A stretch of 57,944 nt of DNA from a virus. A model generated the notes under the pieces. The model did no database searches, was not told the origin of the DNA, and worked only from the letters and a program-made list of their open reading frames with translations. Location of the stretch: the IMG/VR virus record IMGVR_UViG_3300032093_000154, positions 1 to 57,944 of that record; one strand, 5' to 3'. The translations under genes were made by a program, and so were the position numbers. Positions 29,760 to 55,185 of the stretch are shown here, in pieces. The first letter of the stretch is position 1. Each line of letters begins with the position of its first letter.

Positions 29760-32758
29760 TGGCGGTTACAAAATATACTTGCCCACCACAAGCAAGCGGT
29801 GAAGGTAGTTTTTCTGACAATTTGGTTGGGGTACAATTAGTTGCCGGTGGAGGACTTACGCAAGCGAATTTTGAGTTTACAACAAACGTTACTGAAAAGG
29901 TTAACAGAACTTTTACTATTGGAACATTTTCTGATCCAATATCCTTGAGTACGTTAAATATCTCAGATATTGAACAATCAAAACTCCTTGTTGCTAAAAA
30001 TTTTCAAGTATATCCTAATTACGATTTAAGTGAAATAACAAACTTTACATTGTATGGATCGCTAGCAAAAAGAATGTCGGTATCCGTTACAAAAATAATA
30101 AATTTTTACCCTGCGGCATTAGAAATATATTCAGCAACAACACAATATAATATTACAAAAACTGCAATTAACATACAATATGATAGTGTTGAAAATGAAA
30201 CATATTTTGAAATACCATTGGAATCTATTAGAAATCCATTGGATATTGATTATACTATTGATGCTGCAAGAAATTTACAACTAAGAGAATTTTCTGTATC
30301 ACCATTGAGAGATATAACATTAGAATATCCTAAATATGGGGTCATTATAAATGATGAGGTTTATACTATTAACTCATTAATACCAACAACCGAAACAGAT
30401 ACAGTATTAAAATTATATATTGAAGGTAATCCTTTTAGTGGACAACAATCATATGATACTATCATAATACGACCAACAGATTTTTATGTTAATAAGGTTT
30501 TCAATGAGGATTTTGATAAAGTTGAGAATTTTTTATTGAATAGAGATGTAAGTCCAAAATATACAGCATATTTTAACACCCCTGTTGAAAATGAATCTGG
30601 TGGATATACTTTAACGGTAAAAGTTGCAAGATTTCCTGTTAATGGTAGTTGGAATATATCAATATCTGGTACTGATTTTAATCAATATTTATTGAATCTT
30701 AATGAGATTGCAGAAAGTTTGGATGAGTACCGTACAAATTTAGTTTCAAGATTTTTAACGGCAGGTGCAATAAAAGAGTTTGATACCCAAGATCAAAAAG
30801 TTGAAAAAATGCTTCAGATCTATGGTAGAAGTTTTGATGAAACCAAACAATTTATAAGTGCGTTGGCATTTATGAATTCAGTTAACTATACGGTTAAGAA
30901 CGATATTCCATCACAATTATTAAAAAATTTGGCATTGACATTAGGATGGAAAGATAACATCTCACCAATCACAAATGAACAATTATTAAATTCTGTCTTT
31001 AGTAGTGGTGAGAACACTTTTACAGGACTCTCAAAGGGACAAACACCTGAAGAATTAAATTATCAATATTATAGAAATTTAATTTTAAATTCCGCATACC
31101 TATTCAAGTCAAAGGGAACAAGAAAATCAATTGAGATTTTATTGAGATTAATTGGAGCTCCTGATGCAATCACAGAATTTAATGAGTATGTATATGTTGC
31201 CGATCAAAAAATAAATCTAAATCAATTTGGAGAGCAATACGCACAATTGACAGGAGGAACATACGTCCAATACACACCAACATTAGACACTACGGACATC
31301 TACTCAATCATGGGTGTCCAATATACAGGATTTACCACTAATATAACAACGCAAGACATAAGTGTAAGAAGATCCGATTATCCAATGGATTCTTTTGGAT
31401 ATCCAAGTATGCCGTTAGACAGCGAAAGTTATTATTTCCAAATAGGAGGTGGTTGGATAGAGTCAACACCTCAACATAGAATGCCAGCTCAAGTTGATAT
31501 TACTTTATCAACATTTACAGGTCAAAATCCTGACTATCAAACAACTTTATTACCATTTAATTATGGTGATGAGTATCTTCAAAGGTATAGACAATTCCCT
31601 TATATGGAAGTTGGATATAAAATTAGAAAAACAATAGATAATAAGAAAAGTTGGATCATTAATGAAAGTAGATTAAGAAAAAGTTCTGATGGAGGATTTA
31701 ACGCTTATTATCCTGTTGGTGATGAAAGATTGGTATTGAACGTTAAAAACGTTGATATATTTATGAACCCATCACAAGGTTTAGTTTATGATGTATGGAA
31801 TATGTCAAGAACATATAATTTCCCAATACCAGAACAAGGTTTAAGATATGTACCACCAACCTATTGTGATCCTAATCCAAACACACCATACCCATCAAGA
31901 GGGGGTATTGATTGGACTGAAATCGTACCAAAACCAAAACAAAAAACATTTTTTGAGTTTGCTCAAAGTTTTTGGCATAATACGATTAATGTTAGAAACA
32001 GACAATTTATAACTGATGGTAAAACAGGAGGATATCCAACATTACAATCAATATATTGGAAATATCTTGAATCAATGTCTTTAGCTGGTGTTGATAACGA
32101 TAATTTTACATATCAAACAATGATTGATTATGTGAATGGATTGGGTGATTACTGGATCAGATTGATTGAACAAATGGTTCCGGCAACAACAATATGGAAT
32201 ACAGGGGTTAAGTATGAGAACTCAATATTCCACAGACAAAAATTTGTATGGAGAAGACAAATGGGTTGTCAGATTGTTCTTGTACCTTGTAATCCTTGTT
32301 TATTGGTTGGACAAATATTCCAATATGATTGTCCTATACAAGCATTAACTTGTCCTTTATATCCTTGGGAAGAAGGATCAAGAATAACCAATTTTGGTGG
32401 AATTCTAGGTGCAACTTTAAAACCATTCTTAATATCAAATGGATTAACATTAGGTGATTGTGATTTAACAACACTACAAACAACATGGTATGTTAACGTT
32501 AACTTTAATGGTACTGACATTATAAATTACCCATTCTTTAATGGATTGGGATATAATAATCCTTTATCTGTACCAACAGAGGCGGCTTGGACTGGAGCGG
32601 TACAAACGAGTTTTGTTACTTTACAAGACTATGGTTTGAGTTATGTTATAACAGGTAATAATACATTTACGGTTTATAATAATAATTGTATTCCATTAAG
32701 TGAAACACAAACATTTACATTAAATGTGGGAATAAACTTTAATCTTTTATGTAATTAA
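29759..32758 (+). CDS. Large baseplate protein with tail-protein-I-like motif, 999 aa
   Basis: About residues 434-484 read YYRNLILNSAYLFKSKGTRK then SIEILLRLIGAPDAITEF. The 'K-S-K-G-T-x-x-x-I-E-x-L-L-R' helix is the hallmark I associate with the P2 tail-protein-I / baseplate family, which links wedges to fibres. Upstream (about 330-430) is a helical stretch with KVEKMLQIYGRSFDETKQFI; downstream are Asn/Gly/Tyr-rich strands and a Cys-rich part near residues 840-875 (CQIVLVPCNPCLLVG, then CPIQALTCPLYPW). It starts at the previous stop (TAATG) and its own stop overlaps the SprB-repeat adhesin gene the same way. It may be the base to which the fibre bank that follows is attached; this is inference. 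Confidence 0.75.
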   Translation: MAVTKYTCPPQASGEGSFSDNLVGVQLVAGGGLTQANFEFTTNVTEKVNRTFTIGTFSDPISLSTLNISDIEQSKLLVAKNFQVYPNYDLSEITNFTLYGSLAKRMSVSVTKIINFYPAALEIYSATTQYNITKTAINIQYDSVENETYFEIPLESIRNPLDIDYTIDAARNLQLREFSVSPLRDITLEYPKYGVIINDEVYTINSLIPTTETDTVLKLYIEGNPFSGQQSYDTIIIRPTDFYVNKVFNEDFDKVENFLLNRDVSPKYTAYFNTPVENESGGYTLTVKVARFPVNGSWNISISGTDFNQYLLNLNEIAESLDEYRTNLVSRFLTAGAIKEFDTQDQKVEKMLQIYGRSFDETKQFISALAFMNSVNYTVKNDIPSQLLKNLALTLGWKDNISPITNEQLLNSVFSSGENTFTGLSKGQTPEELNYQYYRNLILNSAYLFKSKGTRKSIEILLRLIGAPDAITEFNEYVYVADQKINLNQFGEQYAQLTGGTYVQYTPTLDTTDIYSIMGVQYTGFTTNITTQDISVRRSDYPMDSFGYPSMPLDSESYYFQIGGGWIESTPQHRMPAQVDITLSTFTGQNPDYQTTLLPFNYGDEYLQRYRQFPYMEVGYKIRKTIDNKKSWIINESRLRKSSDGGFNAYYPVGDERLVLNVKNVDIFMNPSQGLVYDVWNMSRTYNFPIPEQGLRYVPPTYCDPNPNTPYPSRGGIDWTEIVPKPKQKTFFEFAQSFWHNTINVRNRQFITDGKTGGYPTLQSIYWKYLESMSLAGVDNDNFTYQTMIDYVNGLGDYWIRLIEQMVPATTIWNTGVKYENSIFHRQKFVWRRQMGCQIVLVPCNPCLLVGQIFQYDCPIQALTCPLYPWEEGSRITNFGGILGATLKPFLISNGLTLGDCDLTTLQTTWYVNVNFNGTDIINYPFFNGLGYNNPLSVPTEAAWTGAVQTSFVTLQDYGLSYVITGNNTFTVYNNNCIPLSETQTFTLNVGINFNLLCN

Positions 32759-34983
32759 TGAGTATATCAGTATATAATTATTCTGTAACGGGAGACTGTA
32801 GTAATTCTGGGGTTGGTGCAATTTATTTTGATATAACAGGAACATCATCACCATTTTCGGTCTTTGAAACCGCACCAACTACAGGGTATTTCCCAACTTC
32901 AGGTACAACAACTTTATATTCTGTTACAGGTATTCCTGCTGGTGAATACTCAATTACAATTACCGACGCTTCATTTAGTGCGGTTACGTATCCTATTTAT
33001 ATTTCTTCAGGAACTTGTGTTTCAATAGATAGTGAAAATACAAGTTGTGGTGATTCTAATGGATCTATAACCGCAATAACACAAAATGTTTATCTATCAG
33101 GTGCTGATTTTTATTTATATGATATAAATGATAATCTAATTGATTCGGCAACAAATGTTGGTGCAACGCACATATTCCCATTCTTATCTGCCGGAACTTA
33201 CTATGTTGTTGGTGATGACGGTGGTGGATGTACAGGTAAAAGTGAATCTTGTATTGTAAAATCATCTACCACATTTACATATGGTACTTATGTTATTAAT
33301 GATAGTAATTGTGAATCGTTATTAGGTACGGGTAAAATATATGTTACCGGACAAACAGGAAATCCTCCATATACCTATTCTTGGCTACCTGGAGGAGAAA
33401 CAACTTCATTTATTACAGGTTTAACAAATGGTGTTTATACTGTTACTGTTACTGATTCCAATGGGTGCTCAATAAGTCAAAATGCGGTTGTAACTACCGC
33501 ATCCGCACCAAATATCGTTTCATTTACAACCACATCACCTTCTTGTTTTTCCAATGATGGTGAGGTTGAGGTGTTGGTTGTTGGAGGTACTCCACCATAT
33601 TATTTTTCAGGTTCAAATGGATATGTTGAAGTAACTTTTTCAAATACGATTACATTTACAGGTTTATCATCAGGAATATTAACTGTGATGGTTACCGATG
33701 CGGGACTTTGTACAGATATTGATAGTGTTGAATTAATAACGCCAAATGGGTTTTCAGTAGTCTCAATAACAACCACAAACTCAAACTGTAATAATAATGA
33801 TGGATCTATAGACGTTTTAATAAATGCTGGGTCACCATCAGGAACTTTTACTTATGTTTTAATTGATAGTTCAGGAAACACGGTATCAATAAATACTGCA
33901 GGTGTTAGTAATACATTCCCTTCAGTACCTTCAGGAAATTATACTGTTGAAGTTAGTAATGGTACTTGTATATATACGGGAACAACAACCGTAAGTAATA
34001 CAAATCTTTTTACAATTACTGCTAGTACAACGGGAACAACTTGTGGTCTTAATAATGGATCAATTCATATATTGGCTTCATCGGGGGGTACATTACCATA
34101 TACATATGAAGTAACAGGATTTCCTTCAGGGCCGGTATCGTCGTTTAATAATTTATCACAAGGATTTTACAATATAATAGTAACAGATGCGGGAGGATGT
34201 AGTCAAACTGAAACCGTTTATATTACAGGGTCAGTCGGAGTTTATTTTGACTTTTTCAATGTCCAACCATTGGTAGGTAATGACGGAGAACTTTCAGCTT
34301 TAATAACAAGTGGGGTTCCACCATTTACACTTAATTGGTCTCCGAACGTTAATGGTCAAACAGGAACAACGGTAACAGGATTAACCGCAGGGACATATTC
34401 ATTACAAGTTATTGATAATAATGGATGTTCATTTACAAGAACAACTACATTGAATGGAACAACATTATTTACAGGATACGAGATCTATAATGTTTGTGCG
34501 GATAAATTTAGAAATACTGGGGTATCGGGAAGAAGAGGTGTTTTACAAATGTTTAATGAAGGATATTTTGATCTAACAAGTGGTGATACGGGTTGTATAT
34601 TAAATTCCGCCACATTTACTGCTGATGTTACGGTTAATGGTGTGAATCAACAAAGTATTTTCTACACCGCATCAACAATGAATGATTATCCTACCGATGA
34701 GGAGTGGGTAACAGCGATAACCGATCTACTTTATTCTTTTAGTGGTATAACAAGTGTTGTTGCAAATATTGAAACAAATCAAATCATTATAAAAAGTGGA
34801 TGTATAACTGGAGGAACAGCTTGTCAACCAACAACAATAAACCAACTTGATGATGCGAATGTTGTTATAAATTTAATAATTAATTATGACATTTCTTGTG
34901 TATTCTGCGGTGGAGACACAAAGATATTCCAAGATGATGTTGAATTTTTATTTATGGATAATATAAATTATGTATTCCAATAA
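32758..34983 (+). CDS. SprB-repeat adhesin / tail fibre protein, 741 aa
   Basis: About seven tandem beta-sandwich repeats of 70-80 residues fill residues 1-575. Each carries the SprB-repeat pattern: a Cys/Asn-Gly start (NDGEVEV, NDGSIDV, NNGSIHI), a GTPPYYF or NPPYTYSW strand, a GL-x-x-G-x-Y-T-V-T-V-T-D turn, and a G-C-S close. These repeats were named from the SprB gliding adhesin of Flavobacterium and are rare outside Bacteroidota. Residues about 576-741 are a distinct C-terminal domain with several Cys, ending IFQDDVEFLFMDNINYVFQ. The first repeat has a Thr/Ser-rich variant. The gene is coupled to both neighbours by TAATG overlaps. A host-surface binding role is inferred. Confidence 0.8.
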   Translation: MSISVYNYSVTGDCSNSGVGAIYFDITGTSSPFSVFETAPTTGYFPTSGTTTLYSVTGIPAGEYSITITDASFSAVTYPIYISSGTCVSIDSENTSCGDSNGSITAITQNVYLSGADFYLYDINDNLIDSATNVGATHIFPFLSAGTYYVVGDDGGGCTGKSESCIVKSSTTFTYGTYVINDSNCESLLGTGKIYVTGQTGNPPYTYSWLPGGETTSFITGLTNGVYTVTVTDSNGCSISQNAVVTTASAPNIVSFTTTSPSCFSNDGEVEVLVVGGTPPYYFSGSNGYVEVTFSNTITFTGLSSGILTVMVTDAGLCTDIDSVELITPNGFSVVSITTTNSNCNNNDGSIDVLINAGSPSGTFTYVLIDSSGNTVSINTAGVSNTFPSVPSGNYTVEVSNGTCIYTGTTTVSNTNLFTITASTTGTTCGLNNGSIHILASSGGTLPYTYEVTGFPSGPVSSFNNLSQGFYNIIVTDAGGCSQTETVYITGSVGVYFDFFNVQPLVGNDGELSALITSGVPPFTLNWSPNVNGQTGTTVTGLTAGTYSLQVIDNNGCSFTRTTTLNGTTLFTGYEIYNVCADKFRNTGVSGRRGVLQMFNEGYFDLTSGDTGCILNSATFTADVTVNGVNQQSIFYTASTMNDYPTDEEWVTAITDLLYSFSGITSVVANIETNQIIIKSGCITGGTACQPTTINQLDDANVVINLIINYDISCVFCGGDTKIFQDDVEFLFMDNINYVFQ

Positions 34984-35288
34984 TGGGTCAATTAGTAATA
35001 AATAATGTTACGGGTATTACATTACCATATGAAATTTATGTTTGTAATGTTTATGGTAATGGTTGTATATTGGTTGCAACAGTAAATACCGCAATTCCAC
35101 CATCAGCAACTATTGTATTACCACCGGCATTTGATATGGCACCAGCAATTGGTGTTAAAATTATTGATGGTGTGGGATGTGAGAAATTTATGATTTTAAA
35201 TTGTGTTGACCTACCACCAAAAGGAAAACAATTCCAAGATGGGGACTATTTTTATTTTATGAACTATGATATTTATCAATTCCAATAA
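34983..35288 (+). CDS. Small YVC-type beta-domain protein, 101 aa
   Basis: A single small beta-domain with the pattern I-x-x-V-T-G-x-x-x-P-Y-E-I-Y-V-C, a second Cys (NGCILVATV), a PP-rich strand, and V-K-I-I-D-G-V-G-C. The same pattern recurs at the N-terminus of the (-) strand gene at 52641-53849 and in the 73-aa gene at 54964-55185, so the three are paralogous. After this domain comes a short tail ending QFQDGDYFYFMNYDIYQFQ, which closely matches the final residues of the upstream SprB-repeat protein. It begins at that gene's stop (TAATG). A fibre tip, adaptor or capping subunit is possible; the function is unknown. Confidence 0.7.
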   Translation: MGQLVINNVTGITLPYEIYVCNVYGNGCILVATVNTAIPPSATIVLPPAFDMAPAIGVKIIDGVGCEKFMILNCVDLPPKGKQFQDGDYFYFMNYDIYQFQ

Positions 35289-35299
35289 CAAACTAACTT

Positions 35300-35312
35300 G
35301 TATTTATAAATA
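35300..35312 (+). promoter_or_regulatory. GTATTTATAAATA: late-promoter match before YadA-like fibre
   Basis: This 13-base run contains both the local GTATTTAT motif (35300-35307) and an exact T4 late consensus TATAAATA (35305-35312). It ends ten bases before the ATG at 35323, in the only gap of the fibre bank so far. It is the best late-promoter candidate in the window. Confidence 0.6.
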
Positions 35313-35322
35313 AAAAAGATTA

Positions 35323-37287
35323 ATGGCATTTTTAACAGATCAAATACCGGCAACAGGAGTAAATCTAACAGATTTATTTCATATTGTTGATCCTAATGAT
35401 TTATCCCAAGGTAATCCTGCTGGGTCATCCTATAAGGCAACTTTTGGTCAAGTTATATCGGCTTTAACAGGTGGAACATCTGTAATGGTATTGAGTACTG
35501 GTGTTGGATCCGTTGAGAGATGTGGTAATAATAATGATGCGGTTGGTGATTACTCTACCGTTAGTGGTGGTTTAGATAACACATCCATAGGAAATTATAG
35601 TGTTGTTGCGGGTGGATCAGGAAATACCGCAAGTGCTTACTATGGTTATAATGTGATAGGTGGGGGAGGGTATAATACTGCTTCAGGAACTGGAGCAAAC
35701 ACGATAAACGGTGGGTTTTTTAATATTGTTGATAGTTATTTTGGATCAACAATTGGTGGAGGATCTTTTAATAGTGTATCTGCTTATGGAGGAACAACTA
35801 TAAGTGGAGGGTACTTCAACACGGCATCAGGATACTCATCAACAATTGGAGGGGGTAATTATAATATTGCAATAGGTAATGGATCAACTGTGGCTGGTGG
35901 AGGGGGATCTTGCCCTCAAAACGGTAACCAAGCATTGGGTTATGAATCAACAATTGGTGGTGGTAATGGAAATACTGCAGCTGGGTTATCTTCATTTATT
36001 GGTGGTGGGATTAGAAATACAACATCATCATATTTATCAACAATAGTTGGTGGTTGTAAAAACAAAACAACATCAAGATTATCGTCAATTGGTGGTGGTA
36101 ATTGGAATATAACATATTCACCAATAGATGAATGTACTTCCGCAGGGATAACAATTGGTGGTGGTTTTGCAAATAATACAACAGGTGGAACTATAAATAC
36201 TACCGATTGGTCATTTATTGTAGACCCAATACCTGTTGATGGAGGTCTATTTTCTGTTATTAGTGGTGGTAGACAAAATTTAGGAACGGGTGATTATTCT
36301 GTAATTGGTGGAGGACTTAAAAACACATCATCGGGTTGCTATACAACAGTAAGTGGTGGATATTCTAATACAACTTTATGTGATCTAAGTACAGTTAGTG
36401 GTGGTTATAATAATAAATCAATTTGTTTTTTTTCCACCGTAAGTGGTGGGTATCATAACTCTGCAATAGGTCTTGGAGCCACAATAGGTGGTGGTTATTT
36501 AAATTTAGTGATTGATAATGGAGGTACAATAGGGGGAGGTAATTATAATACATTAAGTGGTTATGGGTCAACTATTGGGGGAGGGATTCAAAATATAGGG
36601 TCAAATAATGGTATAACAATAGGGGGAGGTAGATGTAATACCTCATCAGGATATTTCTCAACAATTAGTGGTGGTAGGTTTAATGTGTTAATATCTGATT
36701 TCACAACAATTTCTGGTGGAGAATGTAATACAATTTTATCAACAGGTTCAACAATTAGTGGGGGTTATTTAAATACTATTTTATCAAGTGGGTCAACAAT
36801 TATTGGTGGAAGCGGTAATACCATTACACATGATTATTCTGCTGCCGTTGGTAAAGGGGTATATTCTGTTTCGGCATGTACTTTACACACTAATTATCTT
36901 GGATTACAAAATACTCCAGATTCAGACCCAACAAACACAAATTTCTTGGTTAGAGACGTATCAACAGGCGTTGTTAAAACAAGAGCTTTAAATGCTGTAT
37001 TTGAATATTATCCAACAACCGCAATAACAACATCACAAACAATTAGTTGGGATAAAACATATTGGGGTGTTAGCGGAAGTTCAAATGTGGATCTAACTTT
37101 ACCATCAACAGTTGCTAAAGATGGATATATATTAATAATAAAGGATGAGGCAGGTACTTCAGGTTCTTATAGAATAAGATTAACACCGGCATCAGGATTA
37201 ATTGATAATAATTCATACGTTGATATGAATATAAACTATATGTCTCTTACAATAATGGTAAGAAACGGAAATTGGTATTTAATATAA
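35323..37287 (+). CDS. YadA-head-like repeat tail fibre with C-terminal tip domain, 654 aa
   Basis: Residues about 1-75 are an assembly domain shared almost line for line with the 550-aa fibre at 38533 (both contain NPAGSSYKATxGQV). Residues about 75-510 are 13-15 residue repeats of the form STIGGG-x-x-N-T-A-S-G, the left-handed parallel beta-roll of YadA-type trimeric adhesin heads. A neck segment follows (FLVRDVSTGVVKTRAL), then a globular C-terminal domain of about 90 residues (TISWDKTYWGVSGSS; VAKDGYILIIKDEAG; ending MVRNGNWYLI) of a kind seen at the tips of phage fibres. Trimeric fibre architecture is established for the fold; receptor binding by the tip is inference. Confidence 0.85.
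   Translation: MAFLTDQIPATGVNLTDLFHIVDPNDLSQGNPAGSSYKATFGQVISALTGGTSVMVLSTGVGSVERCGNNNDAVGDYSTVSGGLDNTSIGNYSVVAGGSGNTASAYYGYNVIGGGGYNTASGTGANTINGGFFNIVDSYFGSTIGGGSFNSVSAYGGTTISGGYFNTASGYSSTIGGGNYNIAIGNGSTVAGGGGSCPQNGNQALGYESTIGGGNGNTAAGLSSFIGGGIRNTTSSYLSTIVGGCKNKTTSRLSSIGGGNWNITYSPIDECTSAGITIGGGFANNTTGGTINTTDWSFIVDPIPVDGGLFSVISGGRQNLGTGDYSVIGGGLKNTSSGCYTTVSGGYSNTTLCDLSTVSGGYNNKSICFFSTVSGGYHNSAIGLGATIGGGYLNLVIDNGGTIGGGNYNTLSGYGSTIGGGIQNIGSNNGITIGGGRCNTSSGYFSTISGGRFNVLISDFTTISGGECNTILSTGSTISGGYLNTILSSGSTIIGGSGNTITHDYSAAVGKGVYSVSACTLHTNYLGLQNTPDSDPTNTNFLVRDVSTGVVKTRALNAVFEYYPTTAITTSQTISWDKTYWGVSGSSNVDLTLPSTVAKDGYILIIKDEAGTSGSYRIRLTPASGLIDNNSYVDMNINYMSLTIMVRNGNWYLI
35548..36840 (+). repeat. Coding repeat tract, YadA-like 39-45 bp units (first fibre)
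   Basis: About thirty degenerate units encoding variants of S-T-I-G-G-G-x-x-N-T. The nucleotide units differ by synonymous changes and length, so repeats are protein-level rather than exact DNA repeats, but short identical tracts such as ATTGGTGGTGG recur and could mediate unequal recombination with the second fibre gene. Confidence 0.8.
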
Positions 37288-37293
37288 AATAAT

Positions 37294-38514
37294 ATGTCGT
37301 TCATTTTTAACAATAAAGTTGCTTATTCGGATAGTCCAAATATTGATGCTTTTGGTAGATTAAGAACCGCCGCAGTTCAAAATTTAGTGGATATTAAACA
37401 CGTATATGATAAAAATCCATTACAAATTAATGAGGTAACCGCAGGAACTGCAACATCCATTTTTAACCAAGAATACGCAAGAGTTAGAATGTCAACATCC
37501 GCAAATAATGATTTAGTTATTAGACAAGGTAAAACACACCCAATTTATCAACCAGGTAAGAGTCAATTATTTCAAGCGAGTTTCTCAAATTTTCAGTTAG
37601 AAACAAATGTCATAAAAAGGGTTGGGGCTTTTACAACAATAACAGGGTCACCATACAATTCTGTTTTTGATGGATACTTTTTGGAAAGTAATGGGGTTAC
37701 AAATCAAATAAGCTTTCAGATATGGAGGTCGGGCACTACAGTTTACACTGCGGCAACAACCACATGGAACAGTAATGAATTTGACCCAACAGGGATAAAT
37801 TGGACTAACACTAATTTAATGTCAGTTGATTATCAATGGTTAGGTGTTGGTAGAATGAGATTTGGTTTGGATTTATCGGGTATATTAATTTATTTCACTG
37901 AACATAATTGTGCAAATAATGAACCAAATGTTTATATGTCATCACCAAATCAACCTATCAGGTATGAAATAAGACAGGTTGGGGTTGGTTCAGGTTATTT
38001 TGATATGATATGTTCACAAGTATCGACTGAAGGTGCATTAAACGGACTATACTCAACCGTAGGTGTTATAAACTCAACAACGGCAGATTTAAATTCATCA
38101 GGTACAAAATATCCATATATTGGTTATAGGCTTAAACAAGGTTATAAATCAGTGACATCACAATACAGTAGTTTGAGTATTTTAAACACCTCAAACGATA
38201 ATTACTTAGTAACTATTGAGTTTAACCCCACATTATCCGTAACACCAAGTTGGACAGACATACCAAATTCACCATTCCAATACTCAGTTTACAACGGAAC
38301 TGTGACAACAACAATAACATCACCAGGTCACATTATGTCATCCTTAATTGGTGAATCAGGGACATCGGCACTTACAACGATTAGAGTGGATGACAATCAA
38401 ATTAGAGTTGGTTCTAATGTTGACGGAACACTTGACGAAATGTGGGTGTGTATAACACCATTAAGTGCAAGTGCAACATTTTTAGGTACTGCGGAAATAT
38501 TATATTATTTATAA
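37294..38514 (+). CDS. Tail-associated structural protein between two fibres, 406 aa
   Basis: I cannot name the family with certainty. The N-terminus reads NNKVAYSDSPNIDAFGRLRT; the DAFGRLR segment is one I have often met in phage structural proteins. Residues about 50-240 are strand-rich with LVIRQGKTHPIYQPGKSQLF, and a jelly-roll-like receptor domain would fit the pattern of Trp, Gly and Thr in the rest (WLGVGRMRFGLDLSG; EMWVCITPLSASAT). It sits between the two YadA-like fibre genes, seven bases after one and 18 before the other, and has a TATTTAA-like AT tract upstream. A fibre-connector or capping role is inferred from context. Confidence 0.75.
   Translation: MSFIFNNKVAYSDSPNIDAFGRLRTAAVQNLVDIKHVYDKNPLQINEVTAGTATSIFNQEYARVRMSTSANNDLVIRQGKTHPIYQPGKSQLFQASFSNFQLETNVIKRVGAFTTITGSPYNSVFDGYFLESNGVTNQISFQIWRSGTTVYTAATTTWNSNEFDPTGINWTNTNLMSVDYQWLGVGRMRFGLDLSGILIYFTEHNCANNEPNVYMSSPNQPIRYEIRQVGVGSGYFDMICSQVSTEGALNGLYSTVGVINSTTADLNSSGTKYPYIGYRLKQGYKSVTSQYSSLSILNTSNDNYLVTIEFNPTLSVTPSWTDIPNSPFQYSVYNGTVTTTITSPGHIMSSLIGESGTSALTTIRVDDNQIRVGSNVDGTLDEMWVCITPLSASATFLGTAEILYYL
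38506..38513 (+). promoter_or_regulatory. TATTTATA motif before second YadA-like fibre
   Basis: TATTTATA overlaps the stop of the preceding gene and lies 19 bases before the ATG at 38533, with an A-rich leader between. If active it would allow separate expression of the second fibre. Confidence 0.4.
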
Positions 38515-38532
38515 ACAAAAAAAAATTTAAAA

Positions 38533-44957: not shown

Positions 44958-45004
44958 ATCATCTAATTAAACGATAATTTTAAATATCATATAATTAGAC
45001 GATT
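44957..45004. terminator. Long imperfect hairpin between convergent gene banks
   Basis: Arms 44957-44976 and 44985-45004 pair at 17 of 20 positions around an 8-base AT loop. It fills the 54-base gap between the convergent stops of the resolvase gene and the 64-aa (-) gene, so it probably ends transcription from both sides, although neither side has a long T-run. Confidence 0.55.
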
Positions 45005-45011
45005 ATATTAA

Positions 45012-45206: not shown

Positions 45207-45209
45207 AAT

Positions 45210-47533: not shown

Positions 47534-47534
47534 A

Positions 47535-50500
47535 TTATATTTTATTTAATCCTACTCTTAATTTTATTCCTGAAGGTACAAAATCGGCAACATAACGAAT
47601 ATAATTACCGACTGTATCTGCCGATGATGCCCAAGACTGCCAAGTATTCCCATCTGTTGAATACTCCCATGTTCCTGAAGATGAGGTTGATACCGTATCA
47701 TAAAATACAATATTGTTATTTGTTGAATTATATAATCTTAATTTAAGATCGGGAATATTACCATTCCATAAGGAATCTTGTCTCCACGCAAATATTCTAT
47801 TATTTAAATTTGTTTTAGCGACGGATGGACTGTAATGAGAATCAGTTCTATCATCTTCATATAATAAACTAAACCCATATATTCTATTCACTAAGCAAGT
47901 ATTGCCAGCAACTTTATATGAAAATCTAAATTGTATTGTTATGTCATCTAAAACACCTTCACAGATTATATCATTATTTAAATCCTCAACTGAAGTAAAC
48001 GTTGTCCAAGATCCTGAATTATCATCAATTCCTGTAGTTCTATAATCAATAACAATTGGTTCTGGTGGTAATGCAAATGGGTAACTTCCATACTCTTTAA
48101 GAGTATTAACAAATAACCCTGTAATTGAAATTACGTTTGGTAAAGTATATTTTGGGCTAATAAAAACATTATTAGATGTGTCAACATATTTTGCCTCACA
48201 AGATAATGGTACGGAATATAGGTTATTTTGTATGGTATTTAAAGGTCTACATAAATGTAAAACACCATTACAAACAGACCCAAAGAATCCAGTTCCTAAT
48301 GTGTCAGGATATTTAGGTGCATTAGCGTTTGATGTATTTCCTTGTAGTTGACCTCCATTAAATAAAAATGCCAAATCAAATGAATTTTCATATGCTAAAT
48401 TATTATAAGTTTCTCTACCATAAAAGGTACTCACCAATGTTGGTTGTTGTAAGTTTGTTCTATATCCTGTTATATAACTTTTTGCCGTTGTTGATGTGTT
48501 TAAAACAATTAATCTATCAATTTCAGGCATATAATATACTCTACCTACGTTTCCTGCCGCAGCATAAGTGGTTGTTGACCCTGGAGGAACCTCAGACATT
48601 ACACTAAATGAAAGTGTTGCCTCGTTTGAGAAAGATTCTATTGGTGATTGAATAACACCTGAACCGTCCATATAAAACGACTCAACTCCTTGAGCACTTC
48701 CTGATTGCATTGTTGATATTGTAAATTTACCTGTTGAATATGTATTTGGGGCAGATCCTGTGGTATCAAGAACTGCGTTTGTGCTTTCAATTAATTGACT
48801 AAAAGTGTTAAATTTAATACGACCACTACTATCACCAATTTGATTTATTGTTGGACTTTTAATATTAAATCTTGCTATTCTTCCTGTACTATTAATTACA
48901 TAAAGATATTGAGTATTTGCACTTATTACACCTGTAATATAATTATCTTTTATTGTGTTTGTAAAAGTGGCAACATAGTTAGGGCCTCTAGCGACAGTAT
49001 AGTTACAATCTTCTAATTCATACATACCTTTAGATAATGCAGCGTAATTGAAAACAGGAGTTACAATTGAGGTTGGGGATATTGTAAAATCTTGTTTTGC
49101 AAGTCCTTGTATCATAAAAGGCCCGGTGCCTGTTCTATACGTAAATAATTTTAGTTCCTCAATAACGTAAGGAGTTCCTGTGGAAAAAACACCGGCAGAA
49201 CTATTTAATGAGATCCTTTGTGATATATAGTCTGTGGTTGTTATAAAATTAGGATCTCTTGTTCCTCCCGTTGTTTCAACACAAACGATTCCATTATCTA
49301 TTGCCGTATTAGATGTTGTTAAATATAACCTATCTTCACTAGGACTTAATGCCATTGCATTATTTGAATAACTTACAGCGTTTGCTGCGGAAGTTAAATT
49401 AAATAAAAAATTTGGATCCGCGGTTAATGTATTGATATTTCTTTTAGTTGTGGTAAATTGATTTGTGTTAATATAAATATTATTTGACGAATCAACCACC
49501 ATTGAATATGGTTGTACAGCAGAAGGTGATGCCGATGTAATAATGGCGTTACCCGTTGAGGATAATTCAGTTAAATGTATATTACTTGACCCCTTCCAAC
49601 TACCAAATGAACCACCCGCAATAATTGTATTTGTAGAAGATTTATAATGAATCGTAAAAACTACACCATCAAAAGCATTAGACGAACCAGCCGCACCAAC
49701 AACAAAAGTGGAATCAGTACCACCTGTTTTTAAAATTTTTGCAATGTATCTTGAGTTATTTGCCACCGCACCAACTTGAGTAAAGTTACCACCAATATAG
49801 ACATCATTATTATTATCAACAGCAATTGTATTAACATTTGTGTTTGGACTATTTGTTGTTGAATAACTAACATCCCTAGTTCCACCTGTTGTGAGTTTTG
49901 CTAAATATGGTGAAGAAACCCCACTGTAAGTTGTAAAAGCACCTCCCACCCATAAGGATCCGGTAGAGTCAAATTGAATATCATAAACAGTACTATTAAA
50001 ACCTGAAGTATTGTCAAATGAGGTATCTTTAGTACCATCAGTATTTAATTTTATTATTCGGTTATTTGTCTGTCCACTATATTGAGTGAAATCACCACCA
50101 ACATATAATTTACCGGATGAGTCAAATTTAATCACCCTAACTGTTGAATTAAATCCTGATGTGCTAAATGAAGTGTCTATGGTTCCGTTTGAATTTAATC
50201 TGGCAATCCTATTAGTACTAACTCCATTGTATGTTGTAAAATCTCCTCCGATATAAATTTTCCCTGAATTATCAACCCTTACACAATGTATTGCTCCATT
50301 TGAAACTGAAGGTGTTGTCATGTTTGTATAACCACTAATTCTATACCATTGAGTGATTTGAGACGGGTCATTTGATCCAAATCCAATCCTTGATCCTACG
50401 GCAATCCTATTACTAATCCAATCAGTACTTGTCCCTGTAACTGAAGTCCCGTTTACTTGAACTGTGCCTCCTGTGTAATAATTTAAACTTGCTTTTATTG

Positions 50501-50879
50501 CGTGTTGAATTCTAAGGTTGGAACTATCTAAGTTTGCGCAAGAAATTGCACCAACATAACTGTAAGTGAAATTTGATTTATCAAATTCATACATTGCAAT
50601 GTCTGTTGTTGCGACCGAAGCATCAAAACCCTTTAGTGCGAATAACCATTGAGTATTTCCGGTATATGGTATTACGTCTATATCTCCCCAGTTATTAACA
50701 CCTGTATCTTGTGTTATATCTCTAAATGTTGTTGGATTTGGTGAAATATAATAATCACTTGTTGTTGCACCCGTAAATTTATATATATCAGGGCCTAAAA
50801 CTGTTTTTGTTGAGTTATAATTATTATAATCAACAACATCAGCACTATAAGCATCAAACTCTATTAAATTTTTAGCCAT
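47535..50879 (-). CDS. Fibre protein with inserted DUF5122 (delta-60) beta-propeller, 1114 aa
   Basis: Residues about 1-185 and 551-1114 match the 721-aa paralogue, while about 187-550 are extra. The insert holds repeated blades of the form VRVDNSGKIYIGGDFTTYNG, FDSSGKLYVGGDFTQYSG, FDSTGSLWVGGAFTTYSG and VDNNNDVYIGGNFTQVGA, with linking N-x-D-G-T-x-D-T-S-F segments; this is the DUF5122 / delta-60 repeat, a beta-propeller found in secreted bacterial proteins. At least six blades or part-blades can be counted. The C-terminal part carries the W-R-Q-D-S and SSADTVGNYIRYV signature of the family. It starts four bases after the 583-aa gene. A binding platform for host surface polymers is the likely purpose (inference). 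Confidence 0.85.
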   Translation of the reverse strand: MAKNLIEFDAYSADVVDYNNYNSTKTVLGPDIYKFTGATTSDYYISPNPTTFRDITQDTGVNNWGDIDVIPYTGNTQWLFALKGFDASVATTDIAMYEFDKSNFTYSYVGAISCANLDSSNLRIQHAIKASLNYYTGGTVQVNGTSVTGTSTDWISNRIAVGSRIGFGSNDPSQITQWYRISGYTNMTTPSVSNGAIHCVRVDNSGKIYIGGDFTTYNGVSTNRIARLNSNGTIDTSFSTSGFNSTVRVIKFDSSGKLYVGGDFTQYSGQTNNRIIKLNTDGTKDTSFDNTSGFNSTVYDIQFDSTGSLWVGGAFTTYSGVSSPYLAKLTTGGTRDVSYSTTNSPNTNVNTIAVDNNNDVYIGGNFTQVGAVANNSRYIAKILKTGGTDSTFVVGAAGSSNAFDGVVFTIHYKSSTNTIIAGGSFGSWKGSSNIHLTELSSTGNAIITSASPSAVQPYSMVVDSSNNIYINTNQFTTTKRNINTLTADPNFLFNLTSAANAVSYSNNAMALSPSEDRLYLTTSNTAIDNGIVCVETTGGTRDPNFITTTDYISQRISLNSSAGVFSTGTPYVIEELKLFTYRTGTGPFMIQGLAKQDFTISPTSIVTPVFNYAALSKGMYELEDCNYTVARGPNYVATFTNTIKDNYITGVISANTQYLYVINSTGRIARFNIKSPTINQIGDSSGRIKFNTFSQLIESTNAVLDTTGSAPNTYSTGKFTISTMQSGSAQGVESFYMDGSGVIQSPIESFSNEATLSFSVMSEVPPGSTTTYAAAGNVGRVYYMPEIDRLIVLNTSTTAKSYITGYRTNLQQPTLVSTFYGRETYNNLAYENSFDLAFLFNGGQLQGNTSNANAPKYPDTLGTGFFGSVCNGVLHLCRPLNTIQNNLYSVPLSCEAKYVDTSNNVFISPKYTLPNVISITGLFVNTLKEYGSYPFALPPEPIVIDYRTTGIDDNSGSWTTFTSVEDLNNDIICEGVLDDITIQFRFSYKVAGNTCLVNRIYGFSLLYEDDRTDSHYSPSVAKTNLNNRIFAWRQDSLWNGNIPDLKLRLYNSTNNNIVFYDTVSTSSSGTWEYSTDGNTWQSWASSADTVGNYIRYVADFVPSGIKLRVGLNKI
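49230..50321 (-). repeat. DUF5122 propeller insertion within the fibre gene
   Basis: These bases encode residues about 187-550, the part absent from the neighbouring paralogue. The repeat unit is about 45-50 codons, marked each time by a hydrophobic-hydrophobic-G-G-x-F-T triplet. Flanking shared blocks on both sides make this a clean domain insertion (or loss in the other copy). Confidence 0.8.
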
Positions 50880-50882
50880 ATC

Positions 50883-52634
50883 TTATGTTTTTATAACATT
50901 AATTGTTAAATTTATTTTTGTTACGGTTGATGCCGATAAAACATTAAAAGCAACTATATCACCAACCGAAAAATTAGTTGTCCATCCACTTAAAGTGGTG
51001 TCTTGATTAATTTGTTGAGAACTTAATGAAGGATAGTTTCCTCCTGTTATTGAATCTGCAACTGTAGGTGGAAAATTACCATAAGAATCTTTCCATATAT
51101 CAACAGAAGTGGATCCAGACTGATCCCCAATTATTACCCATCCTGTAATATATCCATTATAAGGTAAAGATAAATAATTCTTCAACCCTGTTGTAATAAC
51201 AGACCCACCACCATCTATCGTTATACCAAAAGATCCTAGAGTGACGCCTGTAGATGTAAAACCACTTACATTAAATGTACCTCCCGTATTATTTGTAAAA
51301 ATCGCAGTTCCATTTGAATACGTACCACCCGTAACAAATACATCAACACCTGACGTTCCACCTGTTGTAAAACCTGTAACAGTAAATGTGCCTCCAGTAT
51401 TATTAGTAAAAATCGCAGTACCACCTGAATACGTTCCTCCTGTTACAAAAACATCCAAAGGTAAATTTTGATATGTTGTTGCAGATATTGTTGTCGCAGT
51501 TAAACCTTGGGTGAAAATTGTATTACCGGTTACTGTACCACCACTTAAAGGTAAATATTCACCACTAATGACTGATGTTGATCCTGTTGTTAATCCTGTT
51601 ACGTCAAAAGTACCCCCTGTTATGTTTGTAAAAGTTATTGTTCCTGCAGAATAAGTCCCTCCTGTTACAAATACATCAGTTCCTCCCGTGTAAAATCCTG
51701 AAACATTAAATGTCCCTCCCGTATTATTTGTAAATATTGCAGTTCCTGATGAATATGTTCCTCCTGTTACAAATACATCAGTCCCAGATGTTCCGCCTGT
51801 TGTAAATCCACTAACATTAAATGTTCCGCCTGTATTGTTTGTAAAAGTTGCGATTCCCGTTGAATTGTTATATGTCCCACCAGTTACATAAACATCTGTA
51901 AAACCTGTTATGGTTATTGTACCTCCTGTTGAATTTAAAGATAATGTCCCCGTGTTATAATTAAATGTACCCCCAGTAATGGAATCACCACCGCTACCAC
52001 CTGAAATACCTGTTATATTTACTGTACCTCCCGTTATGTTAACTAACGTGAGTGTACCCATACTATAGGATCCTCCCGTTATTGAAAGATTATTTCCATA
52101 ATATTTTTTCCAAACAGCATTAGGTCTAGTTACTCCACTAACACCATCAATAGTATTTGCAGTCCAACCACTAATAAATGCAATACCTTCAGGTGAATTT
52201 GCCTTTACTGTTGTACCAAAATCTGATATTACAACTGTTGACCCACCAACACCTGTTGCTCCTGTGGCTGAATTCCATAAAGACTCATAGTTATCAATGT
52301 TGTATTGATATACTTGATCCTCATTTTTTACATAAACCAACATACCAATTTTTCTTCTACCCGAAGAAATATTATCAGGACTTAAAGTTAGAGTGTCTAA
52401 TGAAAATGTCGTCCCACTACCCTTTGAAAACATTATAGGTATTGAATTACCTGAAAAATTAATTGCTCCGTATGTTGAGGGTGGTATTGTATAATATAAT
52501 TGATCAAGTGAATATACTTCCATGTATCCACCTGTAGATAGGGTACTAAAATTTGTACCAAAAGACTTATCTCTTGACACACTTTGTGTGCCAATTATTT
52601 GTATCGGTGTTATTGGATTCTTATATGGAAACAT
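50883..52634 (-). CDS. Tail fibre with seven Thr/Gly tandem repeats, 583 aa
   Basis: Residues about 1-180 form the base domain (NPITPIQIIGTQSVSRDKSF; later GWTANTIDGVSGVTRP). Residues about 180-465 are seven repeats of about 30-37 residues; five are nearly identical (DVFVTGGTYSSGTAIFTNNT then GGTFNVSGFTTGGTSG) and the first two are degenerate. A different module, LPLSGGTVTGNTIFTQGLTA, interrupts the array before the last two repeats; that module is common in phage fibres. The C-terminal 115 residues are a distinct domain (GYITGWVIIGDQSGS; ending TKINLTINVIKT) that resembles a beta-sandwich tip. The shape would be a long thin shaft with a terminal knob. It lies four bases upstream of the propeller fibre gene. 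Confidence 0.8.
   Translation of the reverse strand: MFPYKNPITPIQIIGTQSVSRDKSFGTNFSTLSTGGYMEVYSLDQLYYTIPPSTYGAINFSGNSIPIMFSKGSGTTFSLDTLTLSPDNISSGRRKIGMLVYVKNEDQVYQYNIDNYESLWNSATGATGVGGSTVVISDFGTTVKANSPEGIAFISGWTANTIDGVSGVTRPNAVWKKYYGNNLSITGGSYSMGTLTLVNITGGTVNITGISGGSGGDSITGGTFNYNTGTLSLNSTGGTITITGFTDVYVTGGTYNNSTGIATFTNNTGGTFNVSGFTTGGTSGTDVFVTGGTYSSGTAIFTNNTGGTFNVSGFYTGGTDVFVTGGTYSAGTITFTNITGGTFDVTGLTTGSTSVISGEYLPLSGGTVTGNTIFTQGLTATTISATTYQNLPLDVFVTGGTYSGGTAIFTNNTGGTFTVTGFTTGGTSGVDVFVTGGTYSNGTAIFTNNTGGTFNVSGFTSTGVTLGSFGITIDGGGSVITTGLKNYLSLPYNGYITGWVIIGDQSGSTSVDIWKDSYGNFPPTVADSITGGNYPSLSSQQINQDTTLSGWTTNFSVGDIVAFNVLSASTVTKINLTINVIKT
51241..52090 (-). repeat. Near-identical coding tandem repeats of about 105-115 bp
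   Basis: Five copies encode D-V-F-V-T-G-G-T-Y with only a few silent and missense differences, and two older copies lie at the 52000 end. The array is broken by a LPLSGG-type module around 51,470-51,590. High DNA identity makes copy-number change by slippage or unequal crossing-over likely. Confidence 0.8.
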
Positions 52635-52640
52635 ACATAA

Positions 52641-53849
52641 TTACGGGCTTACTACACTACCTCTAAAATAAATATCGTTTAATGTATTATCTAACAAGAA
52701 ATCATTAGATGGATACGTTGTATAAACTCTATAAGTAACAGGAGGTATTGTTGATCCTGTATATGTAAATGTGTTAACACTTATTGTTGGTTCGGTTAAA
52801 ACACTTGTAAAAATATTTGGATTTGATAAGCTAACATCAATTTCACTCTGATAATTAAAATTAGTTAAACCTATTGGGATTAACCAAGTATACCATGCGT
52901 TTGTTGATATCGTTCCAGCAGAGACCTGAACAGTTTCAAAATTGTATGAAACAATAGGATTACCAAATGAATCAACACCTCCTGTCACTTGTGGTACGTT
53001 TGATGTTATAATAGTTGGTAATTCACCATTTGTCCAACCAGAATAGTCAAGATATAAATTAAGTTCATTATCAAAATCAATAGCGTTTACGCTAGGTTGA
53101 GTTGTGTTTGAGAACCCAAAGAATTGAGGTGAACTATTTGAATACATATAATTCCCTATTGATGTGGATGCGGTCAATGGTTCAATTATTAGGTATGCAA
53201 ATCCTGTTGTTGGAGTTGAAGATGGAGTAACCGTAGGAGTGTTAGTTGGTGTATTTGTAGGTGTTAACGATATTGTAGGTGTTACGGAAATTGTTGGCGT
53301 ATTTGTAGGTGTGTTAGTTGGTGTTAATGATATCGTTGGTGTATTTGTAGGTGTTGTTGTTGGGGTTGGTGTAGGATCTGGACAACTATTTGAAATACAT
53401 AGACCACCAACCGTTATGGAAACTTGGTCAGGTAATGTTGGATTAGAACCACAAACATATATTGTCATATCTGCCGGAACCGGAATTTTTTCAATTAGTA
53501 CTCCATCACAATCCACATAGTAGAATGAACCTGTTGTCATGCCTGTGTTAACTGCGGTTATGCAATAACATAGATCTGTTGGTGTTGGAGTTGGTGTTGG
53601 AGTATATGTTGGTGTTGGAGTTGGAGTAACGGGACAAGAAAAAGGTTCAAAGTACTCACAACCCGTTGAATCAATTATTTTAACAATTATTGAAACCGCA
53701 CCATCCAATGGAGGAGGAGGGTTAAATGTAAATGTTGGAGGTATTGTTGTGGATCCTGTTACAAGATAACAATATGATAATGTTTGATCACAAACATATA
53801 CCGAATATGGAGGTGTTCCCGTTGCCCCTGTTATTTGTATTTCAGTCAT
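52641..53849 (-). CDS. Modular adhesin: YVC domain, two Thr/Pro linkers, CYC module, 402 aa
   Basis: Residues about 1-72 are a YVC domain (MTEIQITGATGTPPYSVYVC) like the 101-aa protein at 34983 and the 73-aa protein at 54964. A linker of VTPTPTPTYTPTPTPTPT follows (about 73-91), then a CYC module (CYCITAVNTGMTTGSFYYVD, about 93-160), then a long Thr/Pro/Asn linker of about 60 residues, then a C-terminal domain of about 180 residues with NNTQPSVNAIDFDNELN-like strands and an Ile/Trp-rich core. No cysteine in the last domain. The modules are joined like beads, as in secreted bacterial adhesins. It lies between two other (-) genes with gaps of two to six bases. Confidence 0.75.
   Translation of the reverse strand: MTEIQITGATGTPPYSVYVCDQTLSYCYLVTGSTTIPPTFTFNPPPPLDGAVSIIVKIIDSTGCEYFEPFSCPVTPTPTPTYTPTPTPTPTDLCYCITAVNTGMTTGSFYYVDCDGVLIEKIPVPADMTIYVCGSNPTLPDQVSITVGGLCISNSCPDPTPTPTTTPTNTPTISLTPTNTPTNTPTISVTPTISLTPTNTPTNTPTVTPSSTPTTGFAYLIIEPLTASTSIGNYMYSNSSPQFFGFSNTTQPSVNAIDFDNELNLYLDYSGWTNGELPTIITSNVPQVTGGVDSFGNPIVSYNFETVQVSAGTISTNAWYTWLIPIGLTNFNYQSEIDVSLSNPNIFTSVLTEPTISVNTFTYTGSTIPPVTYRVYTTYPSNDFLLDNTLNDIYFRGSVVSP
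53211..53378 (-). repeat. Thr/Pro/Asn-encoding low-complexity linker
   Basis: The coding strand repeats T-P-T-N-T-P-T-I-S-L/V units, with an 18-24 base period, for about 55 codons. Shorter related tracts occur at about 53580-53640, 54100-54165, 54480-54700, 40750-40800 and 42430-42590 in other adhesin genes, so the same linker type is used by four genes on both strands. Confidence 0.75.
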
Positions 53850-53851: not shown

Positions 53852-54961
53852 TTACATTATAATACTTTCAGTTGATGAAGGAGTTGGAGTGTTTGTTGGA
53901 GTTACCGTTGGAGTAACACAAGGGCAATCAATAAATACAACATTGATTGAATTACCAACAGGAACCGTATTTGATTTTACGGTTATTGTAGATCCTCCGT
54001 TTATGTTTACGATCTGACCTAAATTTGTTGTACAATTTGTAATACCGAATGTATTTGCACTAAATAATAAATTCGTTACTTGGTATTCACAACAAACTTG
54101 TGGTGTTGGTGATGGTGTTAGTGTTGGTGTTGGAGTAACAGTTGGTGTAGGGGTTGGAGTTGTCGTTGGAACGCAAGTACTACATCCACCATCTACCTCA
54201 AGACCAAGTTCACTATTTAATGTGATACTTTCAACACCACTAATTGTATCTATATTTCCAATATATACAACACAAACGTTTATCTCATTAATTGTTGCGT
54301 CATATACCATACCAATAGTTGGAGTCCCACCTGTTGGATTTAAAACAACATCACTTGTTGAATATACATACCCATTCGCACAATCTCTAAATTGTTTACT
54401 TGTTGCACATCTAATATAATCATCCAATGTGTTAAAAGTAGCAATACCTGTATAATTACAAGGTCTGGTAACTTCAGGGGATGGTGTTGGGGTTTGAGTT
54501 GCCGTTGGTGTTGGGGTTGGAGTATATGTCAAACCACTTACCGCAATTCCTCTACCACCACAAGGAGATGTTGGAGTTGGGGTTGGAGTTAAAGTTGATG
54601 TGGGTGTAACAGTAGGTGTTGGTGATGGTGTGACTGGTACATCACAATCAAATATTGCATCAAAATCCACATTACAAGGTGGTGTAGGTGATGGTGTTGG
54701 TGAAGGACAAGGGCCAACATTAAAGAAGTCCTCACAAAGATCTGGACAAACTGACAAACAAGGTGATTTACCAAACAATAAACAAGTTGGATCACCTAAT
54801 GAAGTTGCCAAACACCATCTTGTTTGTCCTGTTGAATAATATAATGTATATGTGTCCCCTGTATAATAGTCATAACCATCATAAGTTCCCGCGGAAAAAT
54901 AACCACCATCATAGTTGGTTCCCGTCCCACTAATACAATATTCTGTTGCGCAAGTTAACAT
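53852..54961 (-). CDS. Modular Cys-rich adhesin with repeated Thr/Pro linkers, 369 aa
   Basis: The N-terminal domain (about 1-85) begins MLTCATEYCISGTGTNYDGG and has eight or more Cys, including CLLFGKSPCLSVCPDLCEDF. Three Thr/Pro linkers (PSPTPSPTPPC; VTPSPTPTVTPTSTLTPTPT; VTPTPTLTPSPTP) separate further small domains; the last holds a Cys module CCEYQVTNLLFSANTFGITN similar to the CYC modules in two other genes. There is a middle domain of about 95 residues (CNYTGIATFNTLDDYIRCAT). The protein ends STESIIM. It starts two bases after the 73-aa gene. Disulfide-rich, extended structure suggests an exposed fibre or adhesin; the number of cysteines is remarkable for a protein folded in the cytoplasm. 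Confidence 0.75.
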   Translation of the reverse strand: MLTCATEYCISGTGTNYDGGYFSAGTYDGYDYYTGDTYTLYYSTGQTRWCLATSLGDPTCLLFGKSPCLSVCPDLCEDFFNVGPCPSPTPSPTPPCNVDFDAIFDCDVPVTPSPTPTVTPTSTLTPTPTPTSPCGGRGIAVSGLTYTPTPTPTATQTPTPSPEVTRPCNYTGIATFNTLDDYIRCATSKQFRDCANGYVYSTSDVVLNPTGGTPTIGMVYDATINEINVCVVYIGNIDTISGVESITLNSELGLEVDGGCSTCVPTTTPTPTPTVTPTPTLTPSPTPQVCCEYQVTNLLFSANTFGITNCTTNLGQIVNINGGSTITVKSNTVPVGNSINVVFIDCPCVTPTVTPTNTPTPSSTESIIM

Positions 54962-54963: not shown

Positions 54964-55185
54964 TTATACGGTTACTGTATCAAAAATTATACATTCATCA
55001 TCATCCACCACTTTAACAACAAAATCAGTCAGGGTTAAATATACTGGGGGAATCTCAAATGTGTAAGGTAAATCACCACTTGTAATTGTTGAAACGTAGA
55101 TACAAGTTGTTAGTCCTGTATTACAAACGTATACATCAAATGGTGTTGAACCTGAAATATTGGTTATTGTGATATCTGTTGGCAT
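54964..55185 (-). CDS. Small YVC-type beta-domain protein, 73 aa
   Basis: One complete YVC domain and nothing else: ITNISGSTPFDVYVCNTGLT, a second Cys in TTCIYVST, a PYTFEIPPVY strand and VVKVVDDDECIIFD at the end. It is the first gene of the (-) bank and is paralogous to the N-terminal domain of the 402-aa adhesin and to the 101-aa protein at 34983. Its upstream region holds a TATTTAT motif six bases from the start codon. It might be a minimal fibre adaptor, or a remnant from which larger adhesins were built. No function is known. Confidence 0.7.
   Translation of the reverse strand: MPTDITITNISGSTPFDVYVCNTGLTTCIYVSTITSGDLPYTFEIPPVYLTLTDFVVKVVDDDECIIFDTVTV

Follow-up and report, generated by a model that had tools for sequence, protein, structure and literature searches.

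A probable mosaic adhesin locus in a large, T4-superfamily-like freshwater phage, with tail sharing and cassette inversion among its relatives

Two convergent gene banks

We analysed a convergent gene locus at positions 32758-55185 of IMG/VR virus record IMGVR_UViG_3300032093_000154; the whole record (57,944 bases, classed linear) is referred to here as the window. The window belongs to a large, uncultivated freshwater phage and carries T4-like replication, recombination and baseplate genes, with PHROG matches to a single-strand DNA binding protein, a UvsX-like general recombinase, an exonuclease, a DnaB-like helicase and baseplate wedge subunits; by these matches the phage is of T4-superfamily type. 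An earlier note on this DNA had described two opposed banks of modular adhesins, and this architecture is real: seven adhesin- or virion-type genes on the plus strand (G1-G7, 32758-44301) are followed by a RuvC-like gene (R), eight genes occupy the minus strand (M1-M8, 55185-45012), and the banks converge at 44957/45012. We consider it probable that the region is a mosaic adhesin locus, comprising fibre and decoration genes, which has been rearranged by general recombination and not by a programmed switch. The features are as follows (the gene names B, G1-G7, R, M1-M8 and P, the primase, were coined in this analysis; lengths are in amino acids, aa).

29759-32758, plus: B, baseplate-region protein of 999 aa, downstream of the baseplate wedge genes and a conserved anchor upstream of the bank; no PHROG match of its own
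32758-34983, plus: G1, SprB-repeat/Ig-like virion-type protein (PF13573, E 7.8e-17; Hoc-like phrog_2973, E 5.5e-7)
34983-35288, plus: G2, stand-alone YVC domain of the plus-bank type
35323-37287, plus: G3, fibre-like protein with 15-residue repeats (repeat family D1), homologous to G5
37294-38514, plus: G4, virion structural protein (phrog_1645, E 1.7e-48)
38533-40185, plus: G5, second fibre-like protein with 15-residue repeats, homologous to G3
40272-41834, plus: G6, N-terminal Cys (CYC) module, SprB repeat and Thr/Pro linker (PF13573, E 2.3e-7; CYC hidden Markov model, HMM)
41866-44301, plus: G7, conserved, without a match in Pfam or PHROGs; it has Thr/Pro linkers, as do 91 of 97 distinct homologues
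44352-44957, plus: R, RuvC-fold, Holliday-junction-resolvase-like protein (phrog_827 and phrog_159), at the edge of the cassette inverted in some relatives
44958-45015, no strand: junction element separating the convergent ends, made of a 28-bp tandem repeat and forming a weak hairpin
45012-45206, minus: M8, small open reading frame (ORF); no relatives found
45210-45371, minus: M7, small ORF; no relatives found
45368-47533, minus: M6, 721-aa paralogue of M5 without the propeller
47535-50879, minus: M5, M6-like scaffold (BLAST against M6) with ~380 extra residues holding a DUF5122 beta-propeller (PF17164, E 3.5e-33)
50883-52634, minus: M4, fibre-like, its C-terminus matching a virion family (phrog_35197, E 8e-23; phrog_10330, 'virion structural protein', E 3e-12)
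52641-53849, minus: M3, starting with a YVC domain closest to the plus-bank type, followed by a CYC module with Thr/Pro on either side and lastly by an unknown domain
53852-54961, minus: M2, Cys-rich and Thr/Pro-linked, the usual minus-bank gene, with a tail that varies in relatives
54964-55185, minus: M1, with which the minus operon begins, a YVC domain of 73 aa predicted to fold as an Ig-like beta sandwich
55186-55230, minus: promoter-like element upstream of M1, a palindromic box followed by TATATTTAT

Relatives were collected from viral_contigs with three anchors (baseplate, RuvC and primase); the three scans confirmed 191 (those of B), 101 and 337 relatives, and the best 80 loci of each were kept. 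Their genes were taken as the longest non-overlapping ORFs and named after the window gene that each matched best in unmasked BLAST; start codons and certain labels are approximate, those of M3 and M4 most of all. These relatives reach 304 kb. Their usual order is B, G1, G2, fibres, G6, G7 and R on the plus strand, M2 and M1 on the minus strand, and the primase on the plus strand. Between R and the primase, 51 of the 80 RuvC-anchored contigs hold exactly M2 and M1, four hold M2 alone, ten hold other minus-strand ORFs, in ten, including that of the window's phage, the locus ends too early, and five are inverted; baseplate- and primase-anchored loci agree with this layout.

Shared tails and modules

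The convergent genes G1 and M2 take their C-terminal parts from one pool. Among distinct full-length proteins, tails are shared between 16 of 84 G1 and 9 of 77 M2; the top match, between G1 of L176 and M2 of L144, is 70% identical over 340 aa, and all listed matches start past G1 residue 735. G1 of relatives has a core of ~720-735 aa, often with an exchangeable tail that is absent from the window's G1. The tails examined consist of DUF285 with PKD-like parts, plus stretches without an assigned family, and DUF285, PKD, DUF5122 and LamG are surface-type domains present in several proteins of these loci. Twelve hand-chosen phages from a single R cluster (R 95-100% identical, two phages near-identical, low-complexity linkers masked) were compared pairwise, and their G1 proteins align over 721-733 residues in 59 of 66 pairs and further in seven; the alignments end there, and close relatives therefore bear unrelated tails. 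Eleven of the 59 pairs involve L191, whose G1 is tail-less; M2 of L191 carries the PHROG label 'virion structural' or 'tail fiber', as do G4 and M4. These protein alignments show that the relatives have tail domains common to genes on opposite strands, and that tails are replaced between close relatives. Syntenic relatives with non-mosaic fibre genes are not what is seen.

The modules proposed in the earlier note to recur in both banks fared unevenly. The YVC domains of the genes at 34983 (G2), 53849 (M3, where YVC forms the N-terminus of the 52641-53849 gene) and 55185 (M1) are indeed related by pairwise BLAST (G2-M3, 46%, E 2e-9; G2-M1, 35%, E 5e-7; M1-M3, 34%, E 4e-6). With M1 and G2 proteins as its source, an HMM found 144 YVC domains in the fetched loci, and because 141 of these begin within the first ~14 ORF residues, YVC behaves as an N-terminal module. 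Of the three further in, two start at residues 43 and 47, in ORFs (115 and 118 aa) whose starts were probably called too early, and one starts at residue 14. In a tree of 75 columns with many weak forks, YVC divides into two types, G2 and M1, with six changes of bank, three of them forced by well-supported branches. On the G2 side lie the minus-strand YVC domains of L148, L152 and L242 and the one in the window's M3, which pairs there with L245 as two long branches, its exact position being unsure; the inverted contigs L116 and L143 contribute minus-strand G2 copies; and the more distant relatives L161, L162 and L165-L167 carry M1-type YVC on the plus strand. YVC is thus mostly inherited vertically, and moves between strands do occur but are uncommon. 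Its fold is Ig/FnIII-like (best Z 7.5), a fold too common for a function to be named from it. In L161-L167, the M2-, M1- and M3-like genes lie on the plus strand, upstream of G6, which suggests that they switched strand in an earlier rearrangement.

The CYC module was recovered in two of the three genes for which it had been proposed. Pairwise BLAST was not significant (G6-M3, E 0.19; nothing relevant for G6-M2), and an HMM built solely from 40272-type genes (42 seeds) detects the 52641 gene at residues 94-157 (independent E-value 5e-6) and returned 26 non-seed entries below 1e-2, the window's M3 counted twice, with none in a locally shuffled control; the window's 53852 gene (M2) was not found by this HMM. 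Thr/Pro linkers are visible in all four genes named for them (40272, 41866, 52641 and 53852) and, counted over distinct sequences with fragments included, in 77 of 77 M2, 48 of 104 G1, 62 of 103 G6 and 91 of 97 G7. These linker counts are all that was retained of a single-linkage clustering of modules, which was dropped for chaining unrelated modules together.

Gene R and the inverted cassette

R lies at the convergence, as the earlier note had placed it, and its AlphaFold prediction (mean predicted local distance difference test score 90.8) has the RuvC fold, with RuvC 7xhj as the top PDB match (E 6.8e-7). Residues D15, E81, E82, D183 and D186, which we take to be the RuvC-type acidic catalytic residues, are invariant in 51 sequences. 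By predicted fold and conserved acidic residues, this single-copy gene would encode a RuvC-type Holliday junction resolvase-like protein. Beside it, where the earlier note saw a hairpin, the sequence at 44950-45030 folds at -14.5 kcal/mol (z -2.7); the terminator scan of the window does not list it, and the window's junction does not have the specific perfect palindrome known from many relatives. Many relatives carry a palindromic, terminator-like hairpin between the convergent ends; in 55 of 80 (a count made without a shuffled control), a perfect hairpin with an arm of at least 8 bp, varying in sequence, lies no more than 110 bases beyond R, and one specific palindrome occurs in 105 copies across the loci, every one adjoining R or M2.

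The cassette that ends in R is reversed relative to B and G1 in L182, L196, L197, L198 and L225 (5 of 80 RuvC-anchored contigs) and in L078; viewed from the primase side, the contigs of L197 and L225 recur as L116 and L143. Among 174 loci with R, some of them on one contig, 162 are upright, seven are inverted (on six contigs) and five are ambiguous (L135, L161, L165, L166 and L167). Parsimony requires at least three inversion events, two from the tree of distinct R proteins, in which L078 is a long branch, and one added by L182, since the upright L183 has exactly the same R protein. L182 and L183, from different records, share 97% identity across the inverted 5.73 kb and carry R in opposite orientations. 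The L182 breakpoints lie at the 3' end of M2, in the linker of G1 and just upstream of the next gene: at the right end, a remnant of the M2 3' end lies between R and the G1 linker, and at the left end, the sequence that precedes the next gene abuts an M2-type tail whose 3' terminus differs. The G1 tail of the inverted clade L196-L198/L225 matches the R-proximal M2 tails of upright L231 and L203/L204 nearly over its full length (37-43%), and these are its only such matches outside the clade; a relationship of this kind to upright M2 tails is what a crossover in the linker accompanied by inversion predicts. A gene of ~325 aa and unknown function (phrog_4417, E 3e-70; L183:5065-6039) lies within the fibre cassette of many relatives and not in the window's phage.

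Recombination mode, known systems and host

The PHROGs scan of the window genes and the Pfam scan of the two banks named no site-specific recombinase or reverse transcriptase, in keeping with the earlier note, which had seen no enzyme for programmed switching. PF00078 (RVT_1), PF00589 (Phage_integrase), PF00239 (Resolvase) and PF01548 (IS110) were each found above cut-off in 0 of 15 records, some of which may be fragments; neither the reverse transcriptase of a diversity-generating retroelement nor a dedicated tyrosine, serine or IS110/Piv-type recombinase came above cut-off in them. All six inverted contigs were represented in the IS110 search, and only those of L225 and L116 in the reverse transcriptase, integrase and resolvase searches. 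A sub-threshold Phage_integrase piece in G009, spanning 21 profile positions, was taken as chance. The longest exact G1-M2 match has a median of 13 bp, the same as in codon-shuffled genes (n=58); matches of 20-27 bp occur only in L177, L183, L184, L187 and L188, the first four of which belong to the R cluster of L182, and G7-M2 matches have a median of 16 bp and reach 28 bp. Long inverted homology as a general driver was rejected, as it was not found in the G1-M2 comparison. As for fixed repeats at the breakpoints, the exact-match comparison covered the G1 and M2 ORFs, and the R-side palindrome was seen only beside R or M2.

We propose that the conserved front parts (the G1 core, the M2 core and the N-terminal, Ig-like YVC modules) presumably anchor these proteins on the virion, and that a flexible Thr/Pro linker often follows and then a swappable tail (DUF285/PKD-like, DUF5122 propeller or concanavalin-like) that presumably contacts the host surface. 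The facing genes G1 (plus) and M2 (minus) take their tails from one pool, and the cassette between them, consisting of the fibre genes and R, has flipped several times over evolution; general phage recombination on short linker matches or on transiently common tail domains would make these changes. To a programmed switch we prefer occasional recombination, whether general or illegitimate, carried out by what the phage itself encodes, namely the UvsX-like protein and putatively R. The virion location of the proteins, their binding of receptors, the setting of host range by the tails and a Bacteroidota host are likewise what we infer.

Several observations weigh against this proposal. With exact G1-M2 matches usually no longer than those of codon-shuffled genes, ordinary homologous recombination would be inefficient. 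Only 33-53% identity is reached in 28 of the 37 G1-M2 tail matches. Parts of the G1 tail of the L196-L198/L225 clade match upright G1 tails (L066, 46% over 139 aa; L019, 57% over 84 aa; further partial matches in L047, L176, L086 and L016), and its M2 origin is therefore not unique; M2 tails of the L225/L116 type have no detected counterpart on upright G1, as a reciprocal swap would require. L182 and L078 are single contigs, in which an assembly error is possible, and neither displays the whole of M2. The virion location is based on neighbourhood and PHROG labels. The suggestion in the earlier note that domains are shuffled between genes and strands thus holds for G1-M2 tails, for the unrelated tails of close relatives and for the cassette inversions of relatives; it does not extend to YVC, which falls mostly into two paralogous groups with few changes of strand, to the minus-bank expansion (M3-M8), for which as a whole neither a donor nor a relative was found, or to the window, whose longest exact matches of G1, G6 and G7 to M2 and M3 (11-14 bp) are no longer than those of the control gene B (13-15 bp) and whose further assemblies are not inverted.

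The low identities and short exact matches would also suit a slower history, in which illegitimate recombination brought in each tail independently, from another phage or a bacterium, G1 and M2 share tails through a common environmental pool, and the inversions were unconnected rare accidents. Surface-type domains such as DUF285, PKD, DUF5122 and LamG in several of the proteins and the partial resemblance of the inverted clade's G1 tail to upright G1 tails speak for such a history, yet inverted cassettes end at G1 and, where visible, at M2 in separate lineages, and both ends of L182 bear the marks of M2, on the right as a terminus remnant against the G1 linker, and on the left as an M2-type tail whose differing 3' terminus meets the sequence before the next gene; we consider this history unlikely. 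A programmed, invertible host-range switch of the Mu, P1 or phiCh1 type, with a dedicated recombinase of perhaps unrecognised family exchanging the C-termini of convergent genes, strikes us as distinctly unlikely. The common tail pool of the convergent genes, the inversion of the same cassette in at least three lineages by parsimony, the opposite orientations of L182 and L183 with an identical R protein, and the precedent of the phiCh1 module flipped by an invertase, as described in PMC8651126, all fit it. Against such a switch, none of the three recombinase families was found above cut-off in 15 possibly incomplete records each, G1 and M2 have no long repeat in common, the palindrome after R was found on the R side only, the L182 breakpoints do not lie at a tidy repeat, and all three assemblies of the window's phage are upright. 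The two further assemblies are 99.99% identical to the window, differing at just 2 and 4 positions over 38,186 bases; these differences are not clustered and, together with the lack of RVT_1 in the 15 records, make a diversity-generating retroelement or targeted hypermutation, already disfavoured, extremely improbable as the source of the many adhesin-like repeats and variable ends that might otherwise suggest it. We also considered inversion free of a recombinase, in which a cassette bearing its own single-copy RuvC-fold resolvase at its edge flips when two convergent adhesins share a linker or tail. Domain sharing would itself make the inverted repeats, and each flip would re-pair anchors with tails; we hold both parts of this idea to be improbable.

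Among known systems, the G segment of phage Mu and the C segment of P1 join alternative C-terminal ends to a constant front part by inversion at fixed sites, catalysed by the serine recombinases Gin and Cin. The constant front and alternative C-terminal ends are alike here, in contrast to the Resolvase family, which was seen in 0 of 15 records. The gp38 adhesins of the T4 superfamily are reportedly modular host-range determinants (Trojet et al.); their domains differ from those described here, where sharing crosses strands and cassette inversions occur. The phiCh1 module consists of two opposed genes that exchange their C-termini. In this haloarchaeal myovirus, an invertase flips the tail-fibre module and gives adhesion variants (PMC8651126), and phiCh1 is the nearest working analogue insofar as both systems have an inverting tail-fibre module. 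A dedicated invertase is present there and none was found here in 15 records for each family; unlike in phiCh1, the piece flipped between L182 and L183 is 5.7 kb long and holds several genes, including the RuvC-fold one.

The moraphages are aquatic; their genomes reach 307 kb and show rearrangements including inversions, and the hosts predicted for them are mostly Bacteroidota, as stated in the passages available (PMC12619734), which make no mention of adhesin exchange or of this cassette. Their size is similar to that of the relatives described here (307 kb compared to 304 kb), and the lineage may be that of the published moraphages. No paper on this adhesin locus is among the matches listed in open-access PubMed Central, and we rate the locus as a variant of modular phage adhesin loci that is new in its cross-strand tail sharing and in cassette inversion without a recognised invertase. 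These features suggest a way in which large phages of a widespread group without cultured members remodel the proteins that presumably contact the host. If tails set host range, the scheme of anchor, linker and tail could be read to predict and test host range from metagenomes. Among cultured phages in INPHARED, tblastn gave no match for the 19887 protein, B, G7 or R and weak partial matches only for M5 and G1 (3 and 1 records, respectively). In bacterial genomes (genome_contigs), no relative of R or B was confirmed that would point to a host.

The extra minus-strand genes M3-M8 (45012-53849) occur together only in the window's phage among the fetched loci. M6, M7 and M8 had no match in other loci, M4 merely a motif of 40-49 aa in plus-strand fibres, M5 its propeller only and M3 one YVC match at that cut-off; a scan with M6 gave matches only in two other records of the window's phage. 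M5 and M6 present a module difference within the window itself. Elsewhere, the minus bank includes a 1750-aa YVC protein in L211 and four near-copies and a 727-aa one in L242/L244. In L095, two extra ORFs lie between M1 and M2 (394 aa; one M4-like by unmasked BLAST), perhaps a further case in which the minus operon has grown. Additional ORFs separate M1 from the primase in L172 (L172:5229-5918) and L225 (L225:79-804), where they look by eye like HNH-type homing endonucleases, and also in L094, L096, L097 and L108. Upstream of M1, TATATTTAT is present in 50 of 53 distinct upstream sequences, and its spaced pairing with a preceding palindromic AACTnCACAArTT box is found in 27 of the 53, with a mean of 0 in 200 base shuffles; this pair is possibly the promoter of the minus operon.

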